Made by a program: the position numbers and the translations under genes
From: Diplonema papillatum
Taxonomy: Eukaryota > Euglenozoa > Diplonemea > Diplonemida > Diplonemidae
Direction of reading: 5' to 3'
Length of the DNA: 64,000 nucleotides
Assembly: GCA_030068145.1 (NCBI GenBank)
Contig: JAPJBO010000224.1
Coordinates: forward strand, 1 to 64,000
The notes under the pieces: model-generated
What the model was told of the DNA's origin: nothing
Seen by the model: only the letters and a program-made list of their open reading frames with translations
Databases searched by the model: none
Shown here: one piece after another, positions 4,189 to 48,542 of the stretch
Position numbering within the stretch: position 1 is the first letter of the stretch
Layout: each line of letters begins with the position of its first letter

Positions 4189-6560
4189 CGCAGAAACGTC
4201 ACAGGTTTGCAGACTGGGTTATTTCATCAAGATGTTGGAACCGTTTGACCGTCGAGATCCCACAAATTTCGCTTTCCAATTTCCGGAGGACGTGTGCCGT
4301 CTTGTTTTTTGGTCGTTTTATTTTGTTTTTACGCAGTGTCTTCTTCTTCATCCTCTTGGCTTTCCGACCTTCGTGGGCCAAATATCATCAGAATTGTCCA
4401 CATTGTGTGACAGAAAGGTGCAAAGTCGCTAGGAAGTGCTCGCCAAGATCAAGAATCACAGCCCTGAAGTACTCAGCAAAAACTGAAAAAGCAAAAAAAA
4501 AAACGACACCCCCCCCCCTGGTTGAACTACGGGGGAACTACGGGGAACTGGCCCACCGACCACACCAGCAGCTTTCGTTTTTGTTTTGCGCGTGCTGCGT
4601 ATTTCTGCCCTGTGGCATTTTCAGGTGAGGAGTCACCAAAACACGCTGCCCACGTCTTGCAGAAACGCTATCCCGCAAGATTGTTACGTCCCAAAAAGCC
4701 CCCTGTAGCCCATAAGGTACGACACGTGGATAGTAAACTGCGTAGCGTGTAAACAGTCCTTTCGAGAAAGGTTCTTCAGAAAACTATCCTCCAGCAATCG
4801 GAAGCAGTGCCGTACACGTCATAGGCCAGCAGTAGCTTCGGGGAGTCGCTCCTTTAATGAGGTGGCTGGGAAGAGACCCTCTGCTAGGGCGCGGTAACCG
4901 GCGTTCGTGAATTAAGTCCGGCCCACCGGACGACGAGGCCCACCTTCGACTCGTTTCGATGTGATCACTTTTGTAGAGATGCTGCAACAGCATCACATCT
5001 CTCCCATGATGTGATCTCTTCTGTAGAATTTCAACTCGTTTTGGCGTGTTCTCTTCCGCAGAATTTTAACACCAAACCAAACTGTCGCAGCCGGTCACGA
5101 CAGGCTTGTAAATTGTGTGGCCTTCCACCCGAAGCTCCCAGGCGTCCTAGCCTCTTGCTCAGACGACAGAACGACGAAGCTATGGGTGTGCTAGTTTTTT
5201 GTATAAGCACCTGCTTTGTAGGAAATACTTGAGGAGGCTGCCAGCTGCAAAATATCAAAGGAGGTAAATGTGCTGTAGCCCACACGAAACACAGGTGAAT
5301 CTGGGTTCAGTGGTGGGCGTAAGCGTTCAACAATAAGCGTTCAACAACACAACTCCCCCTCTCAGCCTCCGTCGAGCACAAGGCAGTCCCTCAAGTTCTT
5401 TTTCTTGAGAGGGATAAACACGCAGTCTCTTTCCCTCCGAGGTTTTATTGTCGCGACCGAATCCCCGTGTGCTGCAGGCGGTGCCACGGCACCAAGCACC
5501 AAGCATCCATGCGGAGCATCAAGCTCGCGCACACGTATCAGGCTCAAACCCACACCATCGCACACACACGTATCAGGTTACCACACAACGCACACACACC
5601 CTCTCCGGTAGCTCCGGTCCGCTGACCTCCGCGGCCTTTGAAAAGCCTAGTGTTCCTTCCGCGTGGAGGCACACGGAAGAGGGCCTCCGCACCCCGGCGA
5701 GTAGTAAGGTGCCTCTTCCAAGGCAGGTTTTAAGGTGCTTCCTCACGGGCCCCGACGCACGCCGCGTCCTCCTCCAAACACTCACTGTCGTTCTCTTCAC
5801 TCTCTCTCTCTCTCTCTCTCTTGGAATTGTCAGCGCGGTAGCGATGACAGCGAGAACACATATAGGTGGGAGGGGAGAGCAAGGAGGTTCCATGTTTCTC
5901 GACGGAACCCGGAACGAGCTTGCTGCGTCGTAAAACCCCAAACGAAGAAAGAAGTGTCTGGGTGTTCTTTCGAACACCTACACGACGACACAAAATATAG
6001 CTCAAAGCATCTGCAGAATAACACGAAAAGCCTCTTGCCAAACCCCCGAGAAGGACTTAATCTATTGTGTACTTCAACCCAGTTTCTCTTTCTGCCATCC
6101 GCCAGTTCGAGACTAAAGAGGAGAGCGCGATACATTGCCCTGCGAGAATTGTTAGCACTGGTAGCACCGGTCGTTTGTAGCAGTGAGCACGTTTTTGAGG
6201 CGCCGACAGCAGCCGCGGAAGAGACGAGCGTACTTGGTCCGATCTGACATTGACGCTCCGCCAACATTGCGCGTACCGAAGTCCCGCGGTGTCCTTTTGG
6301 GGTCTCACAGTTTCACTGGGGGAGTTGATGCGCCACGAAGGTCCGCGGTTGGTTAAGAAAGATTGAGTTGGAAAGTGACCTTGCCCAAGCTCGTTTCCCC
6401 GAGGTCAGGCAGTCTCTCAACATTAAATCAACATCCCCCCGTTGCGCTCGTGATGTTGAAAGACGTGTTTTTTTTTTTTGCGTGAGTTAAGAACTAGCCC
6501 GAAACCTTAGAGTTTTCCATCCAAGCCCGCCCACCACCAATGGGTTTTCTTGCTTGGGCC
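4189..6560. other. Intergenic region without a supported gene
   Basis: Contains the ORF2 3' flank, an A8/C9 tract near 4494-4520, one dispersed D2 repeat (5203-5393), a CT microsatellite (about 5799-5821) and a short segment at about 6305-6340 that recurs inverted at about 52117-52160. Open frames here are short and compositionally random. Confidence 0.5.
5203..5393 (+). repeat. Dispersed repeat D2, copy 1
   Basis: Starts AAGCACCTGCTTTGTAGGAA, continues through GCTGTAGCCCACACGAAACA and ends near a GAGCACAAGGCAG segment. Copies or parts occur at 22025-22062, 36804-37165, 46123-46335 and 52839-53035. There is no coding capacity and no convincing terminal inverted repeat. It may be a SINE-like or MITE-like family. 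Confidence 0.75.
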
Positions 6561-9084: not shown

Positions 9085-11365
9085 GGCCGGGTTGACATGG
9101 GTGGTCTCCGGCCCGCCCCTTCTGATAGACCTGGTGCTATCGGTTACCGCCTTCTTTTCTGGGCATCCGGGCTGACATCGTCGGCCCGGTTGCCCGGCGT
9201 GGCTTCTGATAGACTTAGTGGTCTCTGTCCTGCTATCAGATACCCCGCCTTCTTTTTTTGAGCTTCCGGGTTTGACTTAGTGGTCTCTGGCCTGCCCCGG
9301 CTGCTCTGCGTGACTCCTGATAGACTTAGTGGTCTCTGTCCTGCTATCAGTTACCCCGCCTTCTCTTTTGTTTTTAGAGCTTCCGGGTTTGACTTAGTGG
9401 TCTCTGGCCTGCCCCGGTTGCTCTGCGTGACTCCTGATAGACTTAGTGGTCTCTGTCCTGCTATCAGTTGCCGCCTTCTTTTTCTTTCAAGCTCCCGGGT
9501 GACATGGGGGTCTTTGGCCTCCCCGGTTGCGCGCGTAACCTCTGATAGACTTAGCGTGCTATCGGTTACCCGCCTGCTTCGGCTTCCGGTTGGCATAGTC
9601 AGCCCGGTTGCCCGGCGTGAGTTCTGATAGACTTAGTGGTCTCTGTCCTGCTATCAGTTACCCCGCCTTCTCTTTTGTTTTTAGAGCTTCCGGGTTTGAC
9701 TTAGTGGTCTCTGGCCTGCCCCGGTTGCTCTGCGTGACTCCTGATAGACTTAGTGGTCTCTGTCCTGCTATCAGTTGCCGCCTTCTTTTTCTTTCAAGCT
9801 TCCGGGTGACACGGTGGTCTTTGACCTCCCCCGGCTGCGCGCGTAACTACTGATAGACTTAGCGTGCTATCGGTTACCCGCCTGCTTCGGCTTCCGGTTG
9901 GCATAGTCAGCCCGGTTGCCCGGCGTGAGTTCTGATAGACTTAGTGGTCTCTGTCCTGCTATCAGTTACCCCGCCTTCTCTTTTGTTTTTAGAGCTTCCG
10001 GGTTTGACTTAGTGGTCTCTGGCCTGCCCCGGTTGCTCTGCGTGACTCCTGATAGACTTAGTGGTCTCTGTCCTGCTATCAGTTGCCGCCTTCTTTTTCT
10101 TTCAAGCTTCCGGGTGACACGGTGGTCTTTGACCTCCCCCGGCTGCGCGCGTAACTACTGATAGACTTAGCGTGCTATCGGTTACCCGCCTGCTTCGGCT
10201 TCCGGTTGGCATAGTCAGCCCGGTTGCCCGGCGTGAGTTCTGATAGACTTAGTGGTCTCTGTCCTGCTATCAGTTACCCCGCCTTCTCTTTTGTTTTTAG
10301 AGCTTCCGGGTTTGACTTAGTGGTCTCTGGCCTGCCCCGGTTGCTCTGCGTGACTCCTGATAGACTTAGTGGTCTCTGTCCTGCTATCAGTTGCCGCCTT
10401 CTTTTTCTTTCAAGCTTCCGGGTGACACGGTGGTCTTTGACCTCCCCCGGCTGCGCGCGTAACCACTGATAGACTTAGCGTGCTATCGGTTACCCGCCTG
10501 CTTCGGCTTCCGGTTGGCACAGTCAGCCCGGTTGCCCGGCGTGAGTTCTGATAGACTTAGTGGTCTCTGTCCTGCTATCAGTTACCCCGCCTTCTCTTTT
10601 GTTTTTAGAGCTTCCGGGTTTGACTTAGTGGTCTCTGGCCTGCCCCGGCTGCTCTGCGTGACTCCTGATAGACTTAGTGGTCTCTGTCCTGCTATCAGTT
10701 GCCGCCTTCTTTTTCTTTCAAGCTCCCGGTTGACATGGGGGTCTTTGGCCTCCCCGGTTGCGCGCGTAACCTCTGATAGCCTTGGCGTGCTATCGGTTAC
10801 CCGCCTTCTTCGGCTTCCGGTTGACATAGTCAGCCCGGTTGCCCGGCGGGAGTTCTGATAGACTTAGTGGTCTCTGTCCTGCTATCAGTTACCCCGCCTT
10901 CTCTTTTGTTTTTAGAGCTTCCGGGTTTGACTTAGTGGTCTCTGGCCTGCCCCGGCTGCTCTGCGTGACTCCTGATAGACTTAGTGGTCTCTGTCCTGCT
11001 ATCAGTTGCCGCCTTCTTTTTCTTTCAAGCTTCCGGTTGACATGGGGGTCTTTGGCCTCCCCGGTTGCGCGCGTAACCTCTGATAGCCTTGGCGTGCTAT
11101 CGGTTACCCGCCTTCTTCGGCTTCCGGTTGACATAGTCAGCCCGGTTGCCCGGCGGGAGTTCTGATAGACTTAGTGGTCTCTGTCCTGCTATCAGTTACC
11201 CCGCCTTCTTTTTTCAAGCTTCCTTAAGCTTCCGGGTGTGACATAGTGGCCTCTGGCCTGCCCCGGTTGCCGCGTGTGACTTCTGATAGACTTAGCGTGC
11301 TATCGGTTACCCGCCTTCCTTATGCTTCCGGGTTTGACATAGTGGCCTCTGGCCTGCGGTTGCCG
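9085..11365 (+). repeat. Satellite array with 308-bp higher-order repeat
   Basis: The landmark TGATAGACTTAG recurs at about 9209, 9316, 9432, 9543, 9624, 9740, 9851, 9932 and onward. Spacings cycle 116, 111 and 81 bp, summing to 308 bp. About six higher-order units are visible with edges more diverged than the centre. Almost every monomer carries an inverted pair, TGATAG and CTATCA (or CTATCG), around a short loop. Repeated open frames here (81-115 aa, both strands) arise from the periodicity and are not genes. Confidence 0.9.
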
Positions 11366-17088: not shown

Positions 17089-18690
17089 CGATGCCAAAAG
17101 GGGGGGGGGGGGGTTTGGGCGGAAAAATCCCCGCATAGTTCACCAGGGTCTGACGGGTACTGAGGCCCCATACCCTTCCTAAAACATCATTCTGCGTTCA
17201 AATACGCCCTCAGAAGCCTCCGGAGAGCCTTCTATGATGTCCCAAATGCAATTTTTGTGGGTTTTTAGGGGGTCCCCCCGTCTGCTGGCCGTAAACCGCC
17301 ATAGAAGACACATATGCAACCTGATGCTGGGTCGCTCCTCGGAGCAAAATCTCGGCCTAAACACACGTTTTCGGCGTTCTCTATCATTCTCCAGGTGCAT
17401 TCGACCCTCGGACTTCATAAATTATCTCGCTTACAGGTGTTCCGGGGTGTGCAAAAACAAGGCGAATGGACCCTACAGACCGTACCACGCCCTGCCTGTC
17501 TATACAGGCTTTGGGGTCGAATTGCGCCGCCTTGGCGCCATGTGCACCGTTTTGGTCTCGTTTGTGCTGCTTTGGGATCCACTAAGAACTCTAGTCTGAT
17601 TTGCGGGACGCTTTGCTCGGTTTTGGTGCCCACTTTCACCGTTCAAAGTGCATCCAGTGGTGAAGACTTTGCGCCGAAGCTGGAGAGGAAGCGACCCAGT
17701 AGGCGCCACTTCACCGTGAGCGGGTCTCGGAACAGGACTCAAACTGTGGCCCAGGTGATACTGCCGACCATGGCGGGTGTGTGCGCCACACAGTTTGTCT
17801 GACCAAGCTCACTGCACAGGAGCTTGCCACACATCCCTCGGGTCATGTGCCGCCTGTGCAAAGACATCCAGCGAGAAGCACTTTGCAGCCATGGGTGAGA
17901 AAGATGCCAGAAGGGAAGACATTGCCAGGAAAGCTCTGAAAGCCTGCCCTGAAAGCGGTGAAGCCTGCTTCAAAATCATGAAGTGAACGCGTCGTAGTCA
18001 ACCGCTTGAGAACGGCTGATGATCGCCTGTTACTTAACGCTTGTCCTACTTCGTTCACCAAGCCTTGCAGAATCACCAGAATAGCATAACATGATGCAGG
18101 TAGAAGCCTGAACAGGCCTTAGAACAGTGAAAGTGGGCGCCAAAACCGAGGAAAGCGTCCCGCAAATCAGACCAGAGTTCTTAATGGACTCCAAAGCAGC
18201 ACAAACGAAGCCCGAAACGGTGGATGTGGCGCCAAAGCCAGTGCAGGTTGACCCCAAAGCCTGTATAGACAGGCAGGGCGTAGTTCGGTCTGTCCCCAAT
18301 GCAGGGGGCCATTCTCCTTATCTTTGCACGTCCCGGAACACCTGTGAGTGAAAGAAACCACGAAGCCCGAGGGTCGAATGCACCTGGAGAGTGCTAGAGA
18401 ACGCCGAAAACGTGTGTTTGGGCTGGGATCTTGCACAGAGAAGCGACCCAGCATCAGGTTGCGTATGTGTCTTCTATGGTGGTTTACGGCCAGCAGGCGG
18501 GGGGACCCCCTAAAAACCCACAAAATCGCATTTGGGACATCATAGAAGGCTCTCCGGAGGCTTCTGAGGGCGTATTTGAACGCAGAATGATGTTTTAGGA
18601 AGGGTATGGGGCCTCAGTACCCGTCAGACCCTGGTGAACTATGCGGGGATTTTTCCGCCCAAACCCCCCCCCCCCCTTTTGGCATCGTAC
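17089..18690. mobile_element. 1.6-kb inverted-repeat element, left copy of a palindromic pair
   Basis: Starts GATGCCAAAAGG followed by a G-run and TTTGGGCGGAAAAATCCCC; ends with the same sequence inverted. About 0.55 kb at each end are related inverted repeats, though the two ends have diverged from each other (for instance CTCGGAGCAAAATCTCGGCC versus TCTGTGCAAGATCCCAGCCC). The inner ~0.5 kb is unique to the family. A diverged fragment of the interior also occurs at about 28350-28445, so the family is dispersed. No transposase is visible. Probably non-autonomous. Confidence 0.85.
17777..17986 (+). CDS. Possible small Cys-containing ORF in the 1.6-kb element
   Basis: 69 codons from an ATG to a TGA. 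It reads protein-like after residue ~20 (CHTSLGSCAACAK, then EKDARREDIARKALKACPES), ending FKIMK. It occurs unchanged in the inverted partner copy (19417-19626). It lies in the interior of the element, outside its inverted ends. Function unknown; it may be the last exon of a longer lost gene. Confidence 0.3.
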   Translation: MCAPHSLSDQAHCTGACHTSLGSCAACAKTSSEKHFAAMGEKDARREDIARKALKACPESGEACFKIMK

Positions 18691-18717
18691 CATATATATA
18701 TATAATATATATGGTAC

Positions 18718-20312
18718 GATGCCAAAAGGGGGGGGGGGGTTTGGGCGGAAAAATCCCCGCATAGTTCACCAGGGTCTGACGGGTACTGAGGCCCCATACC
18801 CTTCCTAAAACATCATTCTGCGTTCAAATACGCCCTCAGAAGCCTCCGGAGAGCCTTCTATGATGTCCCAAATGCGATTTTGTGGGTTTTTAGGGGGTCC
18901 CCCCGCCTGCTGGCCGTAAACCGCCATAGAAGACACATATGCAACCTGATGCTGGGTCGCTTCTCTGTGCAAGATCCCAGCCCAAACACACGTTTTCGGC
19001 GTTCTCTAGCACTCTCCAGGTGCATTCGACCCTCGGGCTTCGTGGTTTCTTTCACTCACAGGTGTTCCGGGACGTGCAAAGATAAGGAGAATGGCCCCCT
19101 GCATTGGGGACAGACCGAACTACGCCCTGCCTGTCTATACAGGCTTTGGGGTCAACCTGCACCGGCTTTGGCGCCACATCCACCGTTTCGGGCTTCGTTT
19201 GTGCTGCTTTGGGGTCCATTAAGAACTCTGGTCTGATTTGCGGGACGCTTTCCTCGGTTTTGGCGCCCACTTTCACTGTTCTAAGGCCTGTTCAGGCTTC
19301 TACCTGCATCATGTTATGCTATTCTGGTGATTCTGCAAGGCTTGGTGAACGAAGTAGGACAAGCGTTAAGTAACAGGCGATCATCAGCCGTTCTCAAGCG
19401 GTTGACTACGACGCGTTCACTTCATGATTTTGAAGCAGGCTTCACCGCTTTCAGGGCAGGCTTTCAGAGCTTTCCTGGCAATGTCTTCCCTTCTGGCATC
19501 TTTCTCACCCATGGCTGCAAAGTGCTTCTCGCTGGATGTCTTTGCACAGGCGGCACATGACCCGAGGGATGTGTGGCAAGCTCCTGTGCAGTGAGCTTGG
19601 TCAGACAAACTGTGTGGCGCACACACCTGCCATGGTCGGCAGTATCACCTGGGCCACAGTTTGAGTCCTGTTCCGAGACCCGCTCACGGTGAAGTGGCGC
19701 CTACTGGGTCGCTTCCTCTCCAGCTTCGGCGCAAAGTCTTCACCACTGGATGCACTTTGAACGGTGAAGTGGGCACCAAAACCGAGCAAAGCGTCCCGCA
19801 AATCAGACTAGAGTTCTTAGTGGATCCCAAAGCAGCACAAACGAGACCAAAACGGTGCACATGGCGCCAAGGCGGCGCAATTCGACCCCAAAGCCTGTAT
19901 AGACAGGCAGGGCGTGGTACGGTCTGTAGGGTCCATTCGCCTTGTTTTTGCACACCCCGGAACACCTGTAAGCGAGATAATTTATGAAGTCCGAGGGTCG
20001 AATGCACCTGGAGAATGATAGAGAACGCCGAAAACGTGTGTTTAGGCCGAGATTTTGCTCCGAGGAGCGACCCAGCATCAGGTTGCATATGTGTCTTCTA
20101 TGGCGGTTTACGGCCAGCAGACGGGGGGACCCCCTAAAAACCCACAAAAATTGCATTTGGGACATCATAGAAGGCTCTCCGGAGGCTTCTGAGGGCGTAT
20201 TTGAACGCAGAATGATGTTTTAGGAAGGGTATGGGGCCTCAGTACCCGTCAGACCCTGGTGAACTATGCGGGGATTTTTCCGCCCAACCCCCCCCCCCCC
20301 CTTTTGGCATCG
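18718..20312. mobile_element. 1.6-kb inverted-repeat element, right copy (reverse complement)
   Basis: This is the reverse complement of 17089-18690 at near identity, so 17089-20312 forms one 3.2-kb palindrome. The centre (about 18688-18720) is an AT-rich palindrome, GTACCATATATATA and its complement. The unit ends before another AT dinucleotide tract at 20315-20335. Confidence 0.85.
19417..19626 (-). CDS. Possible small Cys-containing ORF, inverted copy
   Basis: Identical 69-codon frame to 17777-17986, in the right arm of the palindrome. Identity reflects recent duplication of the element, not independent evidence of selection. Confidence 0.3.
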   Translation of the reverse strand: MCAPHSLSDQAHCTGACHTSLGSCAACAKTSSEKHFAAMGEKDARREDIARKALKACPESGEACFKIMK

Positions 20313-36803: not shown

Positions 36804-37165
36804 AAATACTTGAGGAGACTGCCAGTTGCGAAATCTCATAGGAAATACTTGAGGAGACTGCCAGTTGCGAAATCTCATAGGAAATACTTGAGGAGACTGC
36901 CAGTTGCGAAATCTCATAGGAAATACTTGAGGAGACTGCCAGTTGCGAAATCTCATAGGAAATACTTGAGGAGACTGCCAGTTGCGAAATCTCATAGGAA
37001 ATACTTGAGGAGACTGCCAGTTGCGAAATCTCAAAGGAGCAACGATGACTCGCCACTATCCTCCCCACACTATCGCAACAGTATTCCAGTCTCAAAGGAG
37101 ATACATGTGCTGTAGCCCACACGAAACACAGGTAAATCTGGGTTCAGTGGCGGGTGTAAGCGTCT
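36804..37165 (+). repeat. Dispersed repeat D2, copy 3, with six 39-bp tandem units
   Basis: 36804-37037 is six near-identical 39-bp copies of the AATACTTGAGGAGACTGCCA segment, which occurs once in other D2 copies. The usual D2 3' part (GCTGTAGCCCACACGAAACA, CAGGTAAATCTGGGTTCAGT) follows. No spacer-repeat structure like CRISPR. Confidence 0.9.
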
Positions 37166-38215: not shown

Positions 38216-38272
38216 GGGGGCAGTGCTGACACTACCCTGAGAGCCCCCAACGACTTTGCAAGGGACCCCCCC

Positions 38273-38629
38273 AGGCATCTTGTTAAGAACCATCCATCCA
38301 TCCATCAGCCGGCTGACCCCCCCCCCCCCCCCCCCCCCCAGGCTATTTTCACTGTGGAGGGGGGAGACGCTACCTGTCACACTCTAAGGTGGTCACCACG
38401 GTGGGCGGTCAGAAAAAAAAAATTTTTTTTTGCCCCAAATACCCCAAATACCACACTTTGGAAAATTTTTGTGGGCCCACTTTTGGCAGGGAATTTTGAC
38501 CATTTCACCTTAGAGAATTTGACCACCCAGCCTCCAAGGCAACTGCACTGTAGAGGGGGGGGGGGGGGGGGGGGGTCTGGTTTATCCGGCCATCCGGCCA
38601 AAGTGGCTGATCCTTAACAAGAGCGCTGG
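38273..38629. mobile_element. 357-bp non-autonomous derivative of the RT/USP/SAP element
   Basis: Left end (L) AGGCATCTTGTTAAGAACCA; right end (R) ...TCCTTAACAAGAGCGCTGG, so TCTTGTTAAG is inverted at the two termini. Between lie a long C-run, block M (CACTGTGGAGG..., CCCAAATACCCCAAATACC..., CAACTGCACTGTAGAG), a G-run and R. The same blocks appear in the same order, spread over 42262-48542, with the RT/USP frame between L and M and the SAP gene inside M. It therefore looks like a copy that lost both cargo segments. Confidence 0.7.
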
Positions 38630-41795: not shown

Positions 41796-42259
41796 GGGGG
41801 GGTCGAATACAAGAGGTACCTCTTGTATTCGGCGTGCTGATCCTGCAATTTTTCCGAAAAAAGAAATAGAAAACAGCACCGCAAACCCGGAACCCGCGGG
41901 AACTCCCTTCTTCGTCCCGTCTATTTGGCACGGTTCTCTTCATCGGAGCTGAACGCGAGCACATTCGCCGAAAAAGGTCTGCTACATGGGCCAGCAAAGA
42001 AATGTCACCAACCAGTGGGTCTATTCCCGTCCTTTCCATTGAAAATCTGTGGGTTCCACGCCCGGTGCCCCGCATCTGGCAAAGACCCACGAACCACGCA
42101 CATGTTTTTTGGTCCCCGGGTCTATTTTTCACGGTTCTCTGCATCGGGATCAGAAAATCGTCGAAAAGGTCCGTTATGCGGACCAAGGAAAAATCCAACC
42201 TTTTTCCAGATTTCCAAAATGCCTCTTCTATTCAAGGTACCTCCTGTATTCAACCCCCC
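41796..42259. mobile_element. TIR element with G/C-run ends
   Basis: Left end: G-run, TCGAATACAAGAGGTACC; right end: GGTACCTCCTGTATTCAA, C-run. These are imperfect inverted repeats of about 22 bp. The left end contains a perfect 28-bp palindrome (41805-41832, centred on GGTACC). The right end abuts the L block of the RT/USP element. Confidence 0.65.
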
Positions 42260-42336
42260 CCAGGCATCTTGTTAAGAACCATCCATCCATCCATCAGCCG
42301 GCTGACCCCCCCCCCCCCCCCTCCTCGCTTTTTGAC

Positions 42337-43509
42337 AAGGGTCGCAAGTTCCGACCGGACGGTGGGGAAGAAGCCGTTTGCAGGGAGGTCGACAAAGCTG
42401 TGACCCAGTTCGTTGAGGAGCAATTCAAGGACGCCCCTCCGCACTTCGCAAGGATGCTACGGAGGAAGATACTAGCCACGGTTGACCTCTCCCGGGTGGG
42501 AGCCGATCCGGAGCTGACGGCTGGAGCGCGTAAAAAACTGTTGGAGTTGCAGGAACATCTCGTGATCCTGCCCGTGGACAAGAGCTCGCATGATTTCGGC
42601 TTCGTGTGTAAAAGATTTTACAACCAGGACTTACACGCGAAGGTCAATCACAGTACGAACTACTCCCCGAGCGAAGAGACGCCTCAACAAGTCATTGCGA
42701 GGCACAAGGCCTACCTCGGACGGGAAGGATTACACTCATCGAACGTCCTCCCATACCTATATGGCACCCTGAAGCTGCACAAGGAAGTGACGTCCATGCG
42801 GTACATCGCTGGGGTTTCGCGGAAGAACTGTGTCGACTCCGACTCCGAGGCGGCCGATGCTGGACGGGACGCCCGCCCTAAGACCACGTTCTCGTCTACG
42901 ACGGACGCGCAACTGGACCTGACCGGCTTGCTGAAGGCGATCATGAGCATCCTCCGGCGGGAAGACGACATTCGGTTCAACGCGACTGGGTACCGGTACT
43001 TCTGGATCACGGAGTCGAGCGACGACACGGCCTTCTTCCTGAAGACACACGCGGACGAACTCGCGCAGCTGGACGCTGGTACATTTGACTTCACAACGAT
43101 GTATGACCAGCTGGAGCTTGAGGAGCTTCTTAATGCGGTTGCGGACACGATTAATGAGGCCTTCGCGGCGGAGGCTGCACGTTTGAACGTGGACGCGGGA
43201 AGACTCGTATTAGTACGTCCGAAGAGCCAACACGGGCCGACTCGTAAGAAGCGCTGTTTCGCCTTTAAGGTAAACACGGAGGTACGGTCACATGAAGCAG
43301 CGTATTCGGCGCAGGAGCTCAAGACCCTCTTGTCTTTCTGCCTGGTGAATACCTATGTTCTGGTCAATAGGGTTCTCATGAGGCAGACGCTAGGCATCCC
43401 AATGGGTGCGAACGCTTCCCCGGACATCGCCAACCTCTTTTGCTATGCGAAAGAGCGAAAATACATGATGCGACTCTTGGAAGACGCACTGCGGCATTGC
43501 TTAGCCTGA
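42337..43509 (+). pseudogene. Reverse transcriptase, N-terminal part (Penelope-like/telomerase-like), frame broken before the catalytic DD
   Basis: An open frame extends from upstream repeat DNA, but RT-like sequence starts at about 42337 right after a C-run, so the 5' end seems truncated. Motifs: LVILPVDKSSHDFGFVCKRF (fingers), LPYLYGTLKLHK (the P-x-x-YG-x-x-K-x-HK type of Penelope-like elements), TFDFTTMYDQL (motif A with catalytic Asp) and LGIPMGANASPDIANLF (motif B). The frame ends at 43507-43509, and motif C lies in the neighbouring frame. Hence a one-base deletion or -1 shift; no slippery heptamer is visible. It would synthesise cDNA from element RNA. No GIY-YIG endonuclease is seen in the retained part. 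Confidence 0.7.
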
Positions 43510-45515
43510 CACGCCGCTTCATTGACGATCTGTTGTGTTTCGGCACAAAACCCCCACCGGAATCTGTGTACAACATGAGGTACAAACAGACAAACGCCAA
43601 GGTTGGGGACGCCACTTTCCTTGGTATTCGGATTCGACATGAAGTCTCCGAGATGTCCGGGAGGAGATACATGCGCCTGTCAGTCCTCGACAAAGCGAAG
43701 GCATACCGATACCAGCCCTTGGCGTACACATCCGTGCTCTCCACGGCTCCATCGAACTTTGGGTCGAGTATCCTCATCGGAGCGCTTGTGCGTAACGGCA
43801 GGATTGCGAACAACCTCCATGACTTTAAGACCGAGATGAACAACACGGTGCTGAAGCTCATGAGACGGGGGTACCGCAAGAGTGTCTTAAAAAGTGGGTT
43901 TCGTAAATGGTTACTAGACACGTACCCAGAAGCGAAGTTCGGTGATCACTGCGAGAAGATCCGTGCGCACTTCGTGTGGCTCGTACATGAAGTGGAACGC
44001 ATTCTGCAGATGCCCGACTTGGAGTCCATCGACCAAGCGGTCGAGAGGCTGCTCGCTGAGAAGGCCTTCGTGAGATACAGGGACCGTCCTCGACCTGGCA
44101 CACGAACGGAACGAGATACGCCCGATCGGCCTTCCACTGCGGCTCCGAAGCAGCGTCGTGATCTTGTGCCCCAGGATGGGACGACTAAAGGAAAGCGCAA
44201 GCGCAGAGACGATGAGGCTGCTCAGCCTGGACCGAAACGGCGCTGCGACGTGTCCCATGCAGTGCCTGACATGCTGGAATCATCACCCGCTGTCGGCCGC
44301 CAAGCTGTCATTTGTATCCAACGGCCCTCCCGCATGTTCGACCCGTCACCGTTTGAACCTGCCGGCCTCCCGAACCTTGGGAATACTTGTTTTCTCAATG
44401 CGGTACTGCAGCTCTTGTTGCGTGTGGAACCGATCGAGAACATGTATTACAGTCTTGCGCAGAATCCTCTGAATTTCCGGGGGTTCCTGAAGGAGTTCTT
44501 GACGTACTTCGTCCTACTGGTAAGCTCGCGCTCGGGGAGGAGCCAGCTCAGCCAAGACAGCCGAAGGATAGGGGCTGAAACAATCCTCGCCATGCTCCCA
44601 ATGTTCTGCGATGCGCGACAGCACGACGCGCACGAGGCTTTGGTTGCAATTCTGGATAGGACAGACAGCTCCCTAGGGCCGGACGAGACGACGGAGGCTT
44701 GTCCGGATTGGCGGCTTTTCCAGACGTGCCTGGAAAACACGATGACGACAACAACACGATGTATCGCCTGTGGCGCCACATCCACCCGTCATCAACTGGT
44801 ACGGTGTCTTCAAGTCCCTCGTGGAAGGCCGGTGGAGGACGCATTCTGTGTTCGTGGAATTATGAATCCGGAGAGGAGGTGTGACTGCGGAGCTGCTGGA
44901 TCCGTTGTGGAGACCATGAACGTGCATGTGGCGTCCGAGTGCCTGCTGTTGCAGTTCGGCATTTACGCAAGCGATGGTGCGAGACTACGGAATGACGCTT
45001 CCCTACCGCTCCTCCTGCGACTGCCGGACGGCACACTACGCCTTTCCGCGGTGGTTGTACACACGGGACAAAATACGACAAGCGGCCATTTTGTCACATA
45101 CGTCTTGCAAGGGATGCAATGGACGCTTTTCGATGACGAACGAGTCTTGCACGTCGACAACGTTCCTTGGACTGACATATACCTCGCCGCATACGTACGA
45201 ATCCCCAATGCGTCCCACGAGGTGGTCGAACGCTTGCCATCACCTACTATGATGGCAACAACAGTCCCACTGCAGGTCCCGCTGATACCTTCTAGTCCGC
45301 CCTGTACCGACGCGAATCTGGCATCTTGCCAACCCATGCCCTCCGACGCTGCTTTGGCAGCACACGACCAGCCACCTGAACAGCCCAAGGACCCCCCGGA
45401 ACTGCGCTGCAAGCGCTGCTTCACCGACCGCACCAAGGACGGTCGATTGTTCCGGGGCCTCAGAGGCCTGCATGTGCACGAACGTCTCTGCACGTACGTC
45501 AACTTCGGGGAGTGA
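43440..45515 (+). CDS. Reverse transcriptase C-terminal part continuous with a ubiquitin-specific protease (C19) and a C2HC finger
   Basis: Frame coordinates give 691 residues; the biological join with the upstream RT is near 43490. Residues 25-31 RRFIDDL are RT motif C (catalytic DD), followed by FLGIRI and thumb-like helices to about 205. A basic linker (GKRKRR, GPKRR) has likely nuclear signals. Residues 309-590 form a full USP: Cys box GLPNLGNTCFLNAVLQLL (C317), QHDAHE (394-399), zinc-finger cysteines CIAC (441-444) and CDC (481-483), and the His box SGHFVTYVLQGMQWTLFDDERV-type region (H550, D565/566). Residues 657-684 form C-x2-C...H-x3-C. All catalytic USP residues are present, so the protease half looks active: it would remove ubiquitin from proteins. 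I know no established RT-USP fusion. The stop is at 45513-45515. Confidence 0.75.
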   Translation: MLCERAKIHDATLGRRTAALLSLTRRFIDDLLCFGTKPPPESVYNMRYKQTNAKVGDATFLGIRIRHEVSEMSGRRYMRLSVLDKAKAYRYQPLAYTSVLSTAPSNFGSSILIGALVRNGRIANNLHDFKTEMNNTVLKLMRRGYRKSVLKSGFRKWLLDTYPEAKFGDHCEKIRAHFVWLVHEVERILQMPDLESIDQAVERLLAEKAFVRYRDRPRPGTRTERDTPDRPSTAAPKQRRDLVPQDGTTKGKRKRRDDEAAQPGPKRRCDVSHAVPDMLESSPAVGRQAVICIQRPSRMFDPSPFEPAGLPNLGNTCFLNAVLQLLLRVEPIENMYYSLAQNPLNFRGFLKEFLTYFVLLVSSRSGRSQLSQDSRRIGAETILAMLPMFCDARQHDAHEALVAILDRTDSSLGPDETTEACPDWRLFQTCLENTMTTTTRCIACGATSTRHQLVRCLQVPRGRPVEDAFCVRGIMNPERRCDCGAAGSVVETMNVHVASECLLLQFGIYASDGARLRNDASLPLLLRLPDGTLRLSAVVVHTGQNTTSGHFVTYVLQGMQWTLFDDERVLHVDNVPWTDIYLAAYVRIPNASHEVVERLPSPTMMATTVPLQVPLIPSSPPCTDANLASCQPMPSDAALAAHDQPPEQPKDPPELRCKRCFTDRTKDGRLFRGLRGLHVHERLCTYVNFGE

Positions 45516-46122
45516 TGTATGCCCTGCGGAACAGCCGGAATCTCGGCCTAGCGGGGCTGAGTTCAGGTACGGTGCCCACTGTAAATAAGAGGACGCATTG
45601 CTGAAGTGCTGCGTCGGCGACGTTTGCTTTTCGTGCCGCGTCTGATGACGACCTGCCGACTTGCGTTTAATGTACTGGAGGTTCGTTAAAGACCGCCTGG
45701 CCGTGTGCTAGGCGTAGTTTAAGGTTGTACTGATCTACAAACAACCACTTACGAGCTTGTCAACCCCACCGATTTTCTATCTTCTTTCCCCCTCCCCCTT
45801 TTCGACGTTGCTGTTGACTAACGGTTAGGTCGGACCCTTCCCCGGTGAACATCCCATGAAAGTAACAGTGTTGACTTAGACCGATACGGGCTACATGGCA
45901 ACCCCTGCTCAACATGTATGCACGTGGGGGGCCCAGGGCCACATTCATTGCGAATGTGTTCGTGGTGTCGGTCGCAGAAGTCTTTTGTTTTGGCTAGCCA
46001 AAGAGAGAAAAAGAGCGAAAGAGTACGTACAGTAGTGAGTAGAGAAGAGAACGAGTGTAAAAGAAAGGAGGTAGCACGGACTACCAGGCCAGCGGAGACC
46101 ACCGCAAAAAGAAATTTTCTTT
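45516..46122. other. Spacer inside the composite element
   Basis: No gene recognised; a short C-rich run and random frames. It may hold the 3' untranslated part of the RT/USP gene. Confidence 0.35.
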
Positions 46123-46335
46123 TGTATAAGCACCTGCTTTGTAGGAAATACTTGAGGAGGCTGCCAGCTGCAAAAGATCAAAGGAGGTAAATGTGCTGTA
46201 GCCCACACGAAACACAGGTGAATCTGGGTTTAGTGGCGGGCGTAAGCGTTCAACAAAAAAGACCCATTTTGTAGTTGTATTGTTTCTCCCCCTCTAGCCT
46301 CCTTCGAAGTAAGCACAAGGCAGCCCCTCGAGTAT
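46123..46335 (+). repeat. Dispersed repeat D2, copy 4
   Basis: Closest to copy 1 (5203-5393): TAAGCACCTGCTTTGTAGGA ... TGCTGTAGCCCACACGAAAC ... CAAGGCAG. It lies between the USP stop and the second C-run of the composite element, so it may be a later insertion. Confidence 0.85.
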
Positions 46336-46376
46336 TTCCCCTACTTCATCCCACAAAACCATCACCAACAACAACG

Positions 46377-46408
<32 letters not shown>

Positions 46409-46863
46409 TTGGTATTGGCACTGTGGAGGTGGACCGTACCTGTCACGCTCTAAGGTGGTCGCCACGGTGAATGGTCAAAAAAAAAATTTTTTTTTTTGGG
46501 GCCCAAATACCCCAAATACCACACTTCGGAAAAATTTTTGTGGGCCCATTTTTGCAGGGGATCTTGACCTTGACCTTTTCACCTTGTACGAATCTGCCTG
46601 CCCAGTCGGTGGGAGTTTTTTCGCTTTTTGTTTCTGGCCAAGAAGAAGAACTAGCCCCGACACAGTGCGACGGTTTCTCACTTGCGTTTGTCGTTTGTCG
46701 TTTGCCACAAAGAGGCCGGCCCCGAGTACCACCACTGATGAGTGCCCTGAGTATCATCGAGTGACCCGAACGACCGCAAGACATCAGCACAACACCAATC
46801 CAGGACTATTCAAATTTTTCTTGTCGAAATCAACACCTTACCTAAATTCTTCTCGTCTCCAAA

Positions 46864-48432
46864 ATGTCCGGTCTGCGCACTTGCAAGCAACTGTTCCCTG
46901 TCGGGCACCCTGACTTCTATAAGCAGGCTTTGGCTGTCATCAAGTCGACTCCGGCGAGCTTGATTTGGTCACCAACCGACTGGAATGCTGCGAATTGCAA
47001 CTTGGGCAGCATCTGGAAGCACGAGAAGTTCGCGGACACTGCCGCTGTCATGAGTGCTGTAGTGCGCATGACGAACGAGCTTCCCCTGTCGCAAAAGGAA
47101 CGGACTGCCAAGGCGTGGTTCAAGAACGACTGGCAGTCATTTGTGGGCAAACGTCCCGGTGCACCCATGGAGGAGTTGAAGACGCTTTGGAAGCAAGACT
47201 TTCCGACGCTGCAAGCAGCTCTCGACGCCCTGCAAGCACTGCAGGTACCAGAACCCAGCCCTTCTCGTTCGAAGACAGGGAAGGAGCTGTACGCTGGCAA
47301 GTACGGCGACTTGCAGGCATTTGCAAAGCGGTGCCTCGGTAGCGCCTGGAACGAGGATAGTTCCACCGCCGTAACAGCGTGTCTGACCAGCATTTGGAAG
47401 GAGCAGTTCAGTGACCTGGCTGCTGCTGAGGCAGAGGCTCGTGCCAGATTGCAGGCTGTCGTTGCAGACGATATCGGAGACGAATCAGTGGACGAGTGCG
47501 CGGCTATGGAGGGGGCTGAGCACATTGACGAGGGCGCTACCAAGGTCGACGAAGAAGTTGTTGACGCGGAAACAGACGACACAAGCACCGCTGATACGGT
47601 TGCTGAGCCGCCTAAGAAGCGAAGGAAAATGGTTGCCGATATCCAGGCCCTGTTGAGGGCGCAAAACCTTGCGACGACGGGCACGCGGGCCGAACTGGAA
47701 TCGAGGCTGGCCCAGGCGACGGGGGATGTGCCCTCTGGCGATCAAGAAGCGAGGTTTGAGGCCCGCGTCATCGACCACGGATGGGCCCTGGTGGAAAGCC
47801 CGAAGCGCCTGTTCCTCGAATCGTTAGAGTCGCAAGGGTTTACGATCGACCTCGCGACAACGACGACAACTCAATACAATATGAGTTGCTCGTACGTAAC
47901 GCTGTACGTGGCTTCGGCTCTGCAGCGCAATCAGTGCGGGCCAGCCCACCTGCCGACTGTACTACAGCTGCAGCAGTTTTGGAGGGATGTTGCCACCCCT
48001 TCCATGCTCCACATGACGAAGGCGAGACACTCTGCAGTGACGGATGCCCTAACCAGTGAGATCTTCCTGGGGTTGACGACAAACGAGGTGGCCGCTTTCT
48101 GTTCCCATCACAAGATGCGCTACATCTCTCGGGGCCAACATGAAACGTGTGTCCCCAGGATTCACGGTATCACCCCGAACGAAGTGTGCATCGCTTTCGT
48201 TGCAGAAAGCTACGACGCGGTTGGACACTTCTTCGTGCTGCAGTTTTTGCCTAGACAGGCAGCGTCCACTGCCTTGCCGGCACCCACCAACAAAGAGTTG
48301 CACCCGTTCTTTGCTCGTTATTTTCTCGTAATAAATAGCTATTTTTTTTGGGCCCAAATACCCCGAATACCACACTTTGGAAAAATTGTGTGGGCCCATT
48401 TTTGTCAGGAAATCTTGACCATTTCACCTTAG
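46864..48432 (+). CDS. SAP-domain protein with triple WK repeat and possible papain-fold peptidase
   Basis: The ATG at 46864 follows an A/C-rich leader. The last ~30 residues read into repeat block M, so the original C-terminus is probably near 48340. Three related segments, LGSIWKHEKFADTAA (48-62), LKTLWKQDFPTLQAA (105-119) and LTSIWKEQFSDLAAA (174-188), form a repeated helix motif. An acidic linker (200-245) leads to the nuclear signal PPKKRRK (249-255), then a SAP fold (256-287: IQALLRAQNLATTGTRAELESRL), which binds DNA, often scaffold/AT-rich sites. Beyond residue 300 a Q353-x4-C358-G pattern (LQRNQCGPAHL) and H455 (AVGHFFVLQFL) are spaced like a papain/C39-type cysteine peptidase; that is inference. 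It lies downstream of RT/USP on the same strand and is flanked by direct repeats. Confidence 0.65.
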   Translation: MSGLRTCKQLFPVGHPDFYKQALAVIKSTPASLIWSPTDWNAANCNLGSIWKHEKFADTAAVMSAVVRMTNELPLSQKERTAKAWFKNDWQSFVGKRPGAPMEELKTLWKQDFPTLQAALDALQALQVPEPSPSRSKTGKELYAGKYGDLQAFAKRCLGSAWNEDSSTAVTACLTSIWKEQFSDLAAAEAEARARLQAVVADDIGDESVDECAAMEGAEHIDEGATKVDEEVVDAETDDTSTADTVAEPPKKRRKMVADIQALLRAQNLATTGTRAELESRLAQATGDVPSGDQEARFEARVIDHGWALVESPKRLFLESLESQGFTIDLATTTTTQYNMSCSYVTLYVASALQRNQCGPAHLPTVLQLQQFWRDVATPSMLHMTKARHSAVTDALTSEIFLGLTTNEVAAFCSHHKMRYISRGQHETCVPRIHGITPNEVCIAFVAESYDAVGHFFVLQFLPRQAASTALPAPTNKELHPFFARYFLVINSYFFWAQIPRIPHFGKIVWAHFCQEILTISP

Positions 48433-48542
48433 AGAATTTGACCACCCAGCCTCCAAGGCAACTGCACTGTAGAGGGGGGGGGGGGGGGGTCTGGTTTATC
48501 CGGCCATCCGGCCAAAGTGGCTGATCCTTAACAAGAGCGCTG

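Follow-up and report, generated by a model that had tools for sequence, protein, structure and literature searches.

A probable Penelope-like retrotransposon of Diplonema papillatum carries an endonuclease, a reverse transcriptase and a ubiquitin-specific protease in one reading frame

A 64,000-nucleotide stretch of the Diplonema papillatum genome (contig JAPJBO010000224.1, positions 1 to 64,000; hereafter the window) contains a truncated copy of a mobile element in which a Penelope-like reverse transcriptase (RT) is joined to a ubiquitin-specific protease (USP). Comparison with intact copies elsewhere in the genome suggests that it derives from an autonomous retrotransposon of the Penelope-like group, one with an N-terminal endonuclease, that encodes one protein of ~1486 residues, a reading to which we assign a probability of about 0.78. 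Judged by its domains, this one long protein would be capable of DNA cleavage, of reverse transcription and of removing ubiquitin from other proteins.

The RT/USP frame of the window copy was used to search the whole assembly (271 Mb, 2910 contigs). Since 64 of 1133 candidates were scored, the 66 matches obtained are a lower bound. Both the RT end and the USP were spanned by 55 of these 66, the remaining 11 being pieces, and 54 of the 55 had no internal stop. This adjacency, far beyond what chance would give, supports the proposal of the initial annotation of this DNA that a single mobile element combines a Penelope-like RT with a complete USP, and makes that core proposal stronger than first put. 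Thirteen matches lay within an open frame of 1562 amino acids and one within a frame of 1570. Identity to the window frame was 97-100% for 56 of the matches, 88-93% for three decayed ones and 76% for one; six others, at 61%, form a second family (B). No copy with an RT ending cleanly before the USP was seen in the genome with this RT/USP query and this number of scored candidates, limits under which a family with RT alone might have gone unnoticed. The USP was found as a dispersed repeat and not as a single host gene. The refuting conditions named in the initial annotation thus turn out mostly in favour of the fusion.

The order of domains was read from locus L031 (contig C1606), in whose 1562-residue frame the first methionine is residue 77. 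The frame contains, in order, a GIY-YIG endonuclease, a CxC motif, the RT, a basic linker, the USP and a C2HC-like finger:

From residue 164 (165-207 of 1562): GIY-YIG endonuclease (PF01541, E 1.1e-4, 22.9 bits against a cut-off of 22.6)
From residue 466: CxC motif, CPCQRYLLDGYHIQGHACGQAH (CPC...HIQGHACGQAH)
Residues about 500-1060: RT
From residue 1121: basic stretch
Residues 1180-1445: USP (Pfam)
Residues 1526-1555: C2HC-like finger

The GIY-YIG residues were conserved in the alignment, and the predicted model of the endonuclease resembled GIY-YIG enzymes at modest Z. The C, C and H of the CxC motif were nearly invariant among the aligned rows, the first of which is the endonuclease part alone. 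Among the copies traced upstream, the two longest measure ~7.3 kb (L031) and ~7.8 kb (L034), with diverged tandem repeats in the 5' region.

Database records give a different picture of some of these proteins. Two D. papillatum entries in GenBank, P0128 and P0129, bear the name putative ubiquitin carboxyl-terminal hydrolase 16, which would suit a host USP gene into which RT sequence had been inserted. In both, however, the frame that holds the USP opens with the endonuclease and RT, and they belong to clusters of 10 and 11 member sequences. Together with the dispersed, near-identical copies and their fixed 3' end on C-tracts, this makes a host gene with inserted RT very improbable. The annotation of two element proteins listed in GenBank as host-like ubiquitin hydrolases is thereby corrected. 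One further model, P0002 (97-100% identical where matching), weighs against the single-protein reading in that the RT core and the USP are treated there as introns, probably a gene-prediction error. In two more GenBank models of the set P0128, P0129, P0130 and P0138, element sequence is combined with a host-like name (ribosomal RNA-processing protein 12 and magnesium/proton exchanger). The D. papillatum genome paper (PMC10161547) does not use the word Penelope in its main text.

The ends of the copies point to a specific kind of target. The 3' end was identical across 30 loci (L001-L030), which are the best-scoring 30 of the 66 matches and are biased toward near-identical copies; L019 and L020 come from a stretch that is duplicated within one contig. 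A C-run of at least 6 lay within three bases of the 3' end in 29 of the 30 loci, the exception being L016, where CTCCCC was found. On the 5' side, 12 of 16 distinct junctions (17 rows, with L019/L020 counted once) showed a run of 8 or more C within the preceding 30 bases, compared with a background of 189 in 20000 random 30-mers of the window. The long 5' C-run was absent in L003, L016, L019/L020 and L034, which tells against a uniform C-tract target. A clear target duplication of 38 bp was observed on contig C779 (L016) and a likely one, C25 plus ACTTTG, on C260 (L011). Shorter putative duplications, which could be partly chance, were C12TTC in L031, C10TCG in L005 and C10AGG in L033. On contig C712, L034 comes after the 3' end of a second copy, the two forming a head-to-tail pair. 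Taken together, the junctions fit insertion into poly-C tracts with frequent 5' truncation, as would result from nicking at C/G tracts and putative priming there. Few targets are so clearly delimited, and the same genome offers near-identical copies in large number, together with open frames and empty sites.

Other units also abut such tracts. In L033 (contig C253), a 5'-truncated piece of the second family (88% identical to L035) lies directly after a family A 3' C-tract, a repeated use of the tract. A short repeat, CATCTTGTTAAGAACCATCC...GGCTGA, flanked by C-tracts, occurs at window positions 38266-38332 and 42255-42321 and in the flanks of L007, L057, L058 and L062; it is a landing site for several units.

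The window copy belongs to family A and occupies 42325-46377 on the forward strand, with the RT continuing into the USP. Its features and those of its immediate surroundings are as follows:

42262-42324: flanking repeat and C-tract, outside the element
42306..42321, forward strand: C-tract of 16 nt at the 5' junction, the target site
42325..46377, forward strand: 5'-truncated family A RT-USP copy, interrupted by 46123-46334; 3' end common to L002-L030 (29 loci)
42325..43485, forward strand: first part of the RT, LFDKGRKF ... LPYLYGTLKLHK ... TFDFTTMYD ... GIPMGANASP
43486..43489, forward strand: site of the frame-breaking 10-nt deletion; single-frame read-through in other copies
43490..44066 (end approximate), forward strand: second part of the RT, RRFIDDL and thumb
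44187..44249, forward strand: basic stretch of the linker, bipartite and nuclear-signal-like, KGKRKRRDDEAAQPGPKRRCD (position from the alignment, label by eye)
44352..45206, forward strand: USP domain (C19) with Cys box GLPNLGNTCFLN, RQHDAHE, TSGHFVTY and LFDD; two Cys-pair finger positions
45402..45491, forward strand: C2HC-like finger, LRCKRC...LHVHERLC, followed by a stop codon at 45513
45516..46377, forward strand: 3' untranslated region, ending ...CACCAACAACAACGA, split by the nested insertion
~46123..46334, forward strand: a different repeat, nested within the 3' region; the last element bases resume after it
46378..46408, forward strand: C-tract of 31 nt at the 3' junction
46409..48330, forward strand: truncated separate repeat unit carrying an open reading frame (ORF) with a SAP domain (from 46864), outside the element; seven other copies without RT-USP; empty sites at L057 and L058

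The copy starts at residue 497 of the L031 frame and the N-terminal endonuclease is absent. No mismatch to L031 was found over 3808 aligned columns, covering 42325-46122, and one 10-nt deletion, split into two gaps at 43486-43489 in this alignment, disrupts the reading frame. Two open frames were found here, from 42049 to 43509 and from 43440 to 45515; the RT motifs are divided between them (42325-43485, then 43486 onward) and the second continues into the USP. When checked against Pfam, this second frame matched PF00443 (E 1.8e-23), and its Cys box lies at 44364-44399, the His at 45087-45089 and, by eye, the C-terminal C2HC-like finger at ~45402-45491. An RT match was given by the Pfam scan in neither window frame, and the RT was identified through alignment to relatives. 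The initial annotation had described RT motifs running directly into an intact C19 USP with its catalytic boxes and a C2HC finger. Both parts and the boxes are present and the USP does follow in the second frame; the RT, however, is split over two frames and the copy itself is broken. Judged from its sequence, the window copy is dead but young: dead because of the 5' truncation, the 10-nt deletion and the nested insertion, and young because of the zero substitutions relative to L031. The nested sequence is a dispersed repeat, 46120-46256 being 97.8% identical to window positions 5197-5333, with a partial copy at 37092-37163.

The initial annotation had also drawn one element from 42262 to 48542, with the SAP-domain protein as a part of it. 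The RT-USP and the SAP ORF (46864-48432; PF02037, E 1.5e-5) are on the same strand and only 1.35 kb apart, an arrangement that would suit a larger mobile element containing both. The RT-USP element nevertheless ends at 46377, before the 31-nt C-tract and upstream of the SAP ORF, and the seven best SAP copies besides that of the window (L056-L062), which match window positions 46398-48317 at 99.7-100% (a short block of two in L057, 99.0%), all lack the RT-USP. Furthermore, none of the 3' junctions of L002-L030, each followed for 1.5 kb downstream, continues into the SAP unit, and loci L002-L034, of which the majority cover only 1.5 kb downstream, did not contain the SAP ORF. In L057 and L058 the left flank of the element, ...CATCAGCCGGCTGA, is joined by an unbroken C-tract to the right flank, TTGGTATTGGCACTGTGGAGG; in L062 this junction is present in slightly diverged form. 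Because L057 and L058 are empty sites, the RT-USP copy was inserted at a C-tract bordering the SAP unit. The larger element is thus refuted for the window copy and extremely improbable in general, and the annotated element shrinks at both ends to 42325-46377.

The SAP unit is itself repetitive. At least 89 matches to its ORF were obtained (87 of 154 candidates scored), of which 66 were distant (26-30% identity), most of them in frames of 1417 amino acids, and the unit adjoins a C-tract in six of the seven fetched copies. The window ORF runs into another repeat after about 48317-48330, from which its last residues are read, and is the N-terminal part of a longer ORF that is open over 985 amino acids in L057. 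This longer ORF looked transposase-like by eye; Pfam gave only SAP-type matches, and we make no such claim. Comparison of the window SAP ORF with solved structures gave nothing informative. Window positions 38266-38501 were considered as an exact empty site and rejected, the left flank being identical and the right flank only 86% alike; the exact sites are L057 and L058.

Two further features were observed in the window. Positions 17089-20312 form a 3.2-kb palindrome with two 1611-nt arms, 99.5% identical, around a C-run/AT-rich centre, as seen in the assembly only. Positions 9119-11343 hold a tandem array with units of about 307 bp.

The catalytic Cys and His boxes and the predicted USP fold place the protease of the element in peptidase C19, and this membership suggests that it would act as a deubiquitinase. 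Cys and His were kept in 11 of 11 aligned element USPs. The ratio of nonsynonymous to synonymous change (dN/dS) was 0.17-0.19 in unsaturated pairs (dS about 0.3 to 0.7), as estimated by a simple Nei-Gojobori count with pairs of few USP changes left out. This check indicates that the USP is under purifying selection. Several points weigh against a USP that is uniformly needed and maintained. It evolves faster than the RT (dN/dS about 0.19 versus 0.03). As for USP and linker, the bootstrap ranges overlapped when families A and B were compared, a pair saturated at synonymous sites. The QDAHE-type box is degraded in P0133 and P0137, and P0004 and P0135, which belong to the clade and have the RT and the finger, contain no detected USP in their records. 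At least in some relatives the USP is therefore dispensable, or it is missing from the records of P0004 and P0135; it is not obligatory in the wider clade. The higher dN/dS, the degraded boxes and the relatives without a detected USP would also fit a passenger, that is, a captured end of a host gene that is unneeded for mobility and is decaying. The passenger reading is unlikely given the low dN/dS, the retained Cys and His and the 54 of 55 uninterrupted matches, as well as the presence of the USP in two distant RT groups.

Those two groups emerged from a comparison with related proteins. Over the RT, the element could be aligned to proteins of GIY-YIG/RT type, for example P0078 (E 9.8e-45) and the GIY-YIG-bearing P0022 (E 1.2e-39). 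In proteins from other sources, RT together with USP was found in P0133 (RT 44% identical to P0001), P0136 (41%) and P0137 (33%), and the D. papillatum protein P0005 (39% to the window frame) has an RT and the beginning of a USP. P0005 and P0001 are labelled as USP carriers on scores below the Pfam cut-off, and P0005, being too partial, is included neither in the alignment nor in the tree of USPs. By eye, similar C-terminal fingers occur in P0004, P0128, P0133, P0135 and P0137. A second RT-USP group comprises P0006, P0010, P0011, P0012, P0017 and P0092, the other five being 52-61% identical to P0006 over the stretch searched; we take this group to be Naiad-like. P0010-P0012 have an N-terminal GIY-YIG as well as RT and USP. 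A viral-contig search for related loci with P0006 and P0001 gave nothing informative.

An RT tree of 36 rows was built from 35 of 140 proteins plus L031, as had been proposed; it holds no telomerase, canonical Penelope or Chlamys row. Of 38 rows picked, P0009 and P0013 were dropped for repeat RT blocks, and P0017 and P0092 are outside the tree. The two USP-bearing groups were placed apart in this tree, which has long branches and no outside root, with P0006 and P0010-P0012 (98/94 support) surrounded by proteins in which no USP was detected. Absence of a USP was judged by Pfam scans of records, many of them short, some of which may end before a USP. A single clade of all USP carriers was rejected (p-AU 6e-56); the tree requires a minimum of four gains or losses. 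In the USP tree, which has long branches and only two non-element USPs, a single origin was neither shown nor excluded (p-AU 0.084). We tentatively suggest, at a little under even odds, that at least two distant branches (Diplonema and Naiad-like) captured an intact USP independently, each behind the RT, and that deubiquitination is recurrent in N-terminal-endonuclease Penelope-like elements. Repeated loss of the USP from one old fusion may explain the pattern instead.

A candidate mechanism can be drawn from the single frame with endonuclease, RT and USP, the recent spread, the C-tract target, the fixed 3' and truncated 5' ends, the target duplication and the selection on the USP. Nicking, primed reverse transcription, nuclear entry, deubiquitination and its substrate are the parts that we infer. 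For the anole Poseidon element, nicking and primed synthesis have been assayed with purified protein (PMC11167929). The endonuclease would nick the genome at a poly-C/poly-G tract, and the RT would use the nicked end to begin complementary DNA, copying the element RNA from its 3' end. Such a start would account for the fixed 3' ends and the many 5'-truncated copies. A staggered second cut would then yield the duplicated C-tract plus adjoining bases. The USP would enter the nucleus within the same protein as the endonuclease and RT and would remove ubiquitin there. As its substrate we favour the element's own protein-RNA complex engaged on DNA, which would thus be spared degradation or removal before synthesis ends, a preference that stops short of an even chance. 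With a predicted full deubiquitinase as part of its replicating enzyme, the retrotransposon offers a direct handle on whether ubiquitin limits retrotransposition.

The USP may instead act on host proteins at the insertion site, such as ubiquitinated H2A/H2B, PCNA or FANCD2-like repair proteins, and so open chromatin or damp repair. The initial annotation had offered both protection of the element's proteins and action on ubiquitinated histones as possible roles. The position of the USP downstream of a nuclear-signal-like stretch, in the frame that also encodes the endonuclease and RT, would suit a role at host proteins. The best structural matches among those listed were USP46, USP12, USP35 and USP1 (~24% identity), and PDB titles among the matches include USP46, USP12 and USP1 with UAF1/WDR48 and USP1 with ubiquitinated FANCD2. 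This USP12/46/1-like fold leans toward chromatin or repair, although not specifically; beyond the PDB titles, such enzymes presumably have substrates of that kind. In addition, a DNA-repair role was proposed for transposon-borne ubiquitin/SUMO proteases in the Ginger paper (PMC2836005). Identity of 24%, however, shows a fold and not a substrate, and the 50 listed matches lie within 3.3 Z units (26.8 to 23.5). We regard action on host proteins as a real possibility, held with less conviction than action on the element's own complex. The remaining probability falls to another role such as polyprotein processing, against which the Pfam scan of the L031 frame revealed no ubiquitin-like domain.

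Our literature search found no report of an RT-USP element; it did not extend to the main paper on the Penelope-like group. Proteases of this pathway are carried by other mobile elements. Ginger1 DNA transposons have OTU or Ulp1, such proteases also occur on Mutator and Helitrons, and an IS5-like transposase of Trichomonas (T. vaginalis) has peptidase C19 (PMC2836005). Like the Diplonema element, Ginger1 and the IS5-like element combine a transposon protein with a ubiquitin/SUMO-pathway protease, C19 in one case; unlike it, they are DNA transposons with no RT. The nematode NeSL and Utopia non-LTR retrotransposons have an N-terminal Ulp1-like protease (PMC4640811) and thus share a retrotransposon protein with a ubiquitin-like protease domain, whereas theirs is of the Ulp1 (SUMO) type and N-terminal, their endonuclease is restriction-like and their RT belongs to another lineage. 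Host USP12, USP46 and USP1 share the fold, the Cys and His boxes and the finger Cys pairs with the element USP; they differ in having no RT and in the low identity in structural alignment given above.

With respect to canonical Penelope elements, the GIY-YIG of the Diplonema element is N-terminal and not C-terminal, and its C-terminus consists of the USP plus the finger. No hammerhead ribozyme was among the Rfam matches at five loci (E up to 0.5); only five sub-threshold microRNA-type matches were obtained, all at L034 2795-2879. P0010, P0011 and P0012 have the same order of endonuclease, CxC, RT and USP, whereas their RT is only about 22-25% identical to that of L031, the C-terminal finger was not seen by eye and they form a separate RT-tree group.

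Penelope-like elements with an N-terminal GIY-YIG, Naiad and Chlamys, were reportedly described by Craig et al. in 2021. The Naiad endonuclease carries a CCHH motif, and the N-terminal endonuclease of Chlamys is without it. In our alignment the endonuclease CxxC was present in P0010, P0011, P0012, P0018, P0022 and P0034 and absent in L031, P0128, P0001 and P0137, so that L031 agrees with Chlamys in this trait. Elements of the N-terminal-endonuclease type are characterized by GIY-YIG, a CxC before the RT, a telomerase-related RT, 5' truncation and simple-repeat insertion. All of these are shared by the Diplonema element, the N-terminal GIY-YIG being found in intact copies and absent from the truncated window copy. 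The Diplonema element differs from the Naiad/Chlamys type in its USP and C-terminal finger and in its target, a pure C-tract.

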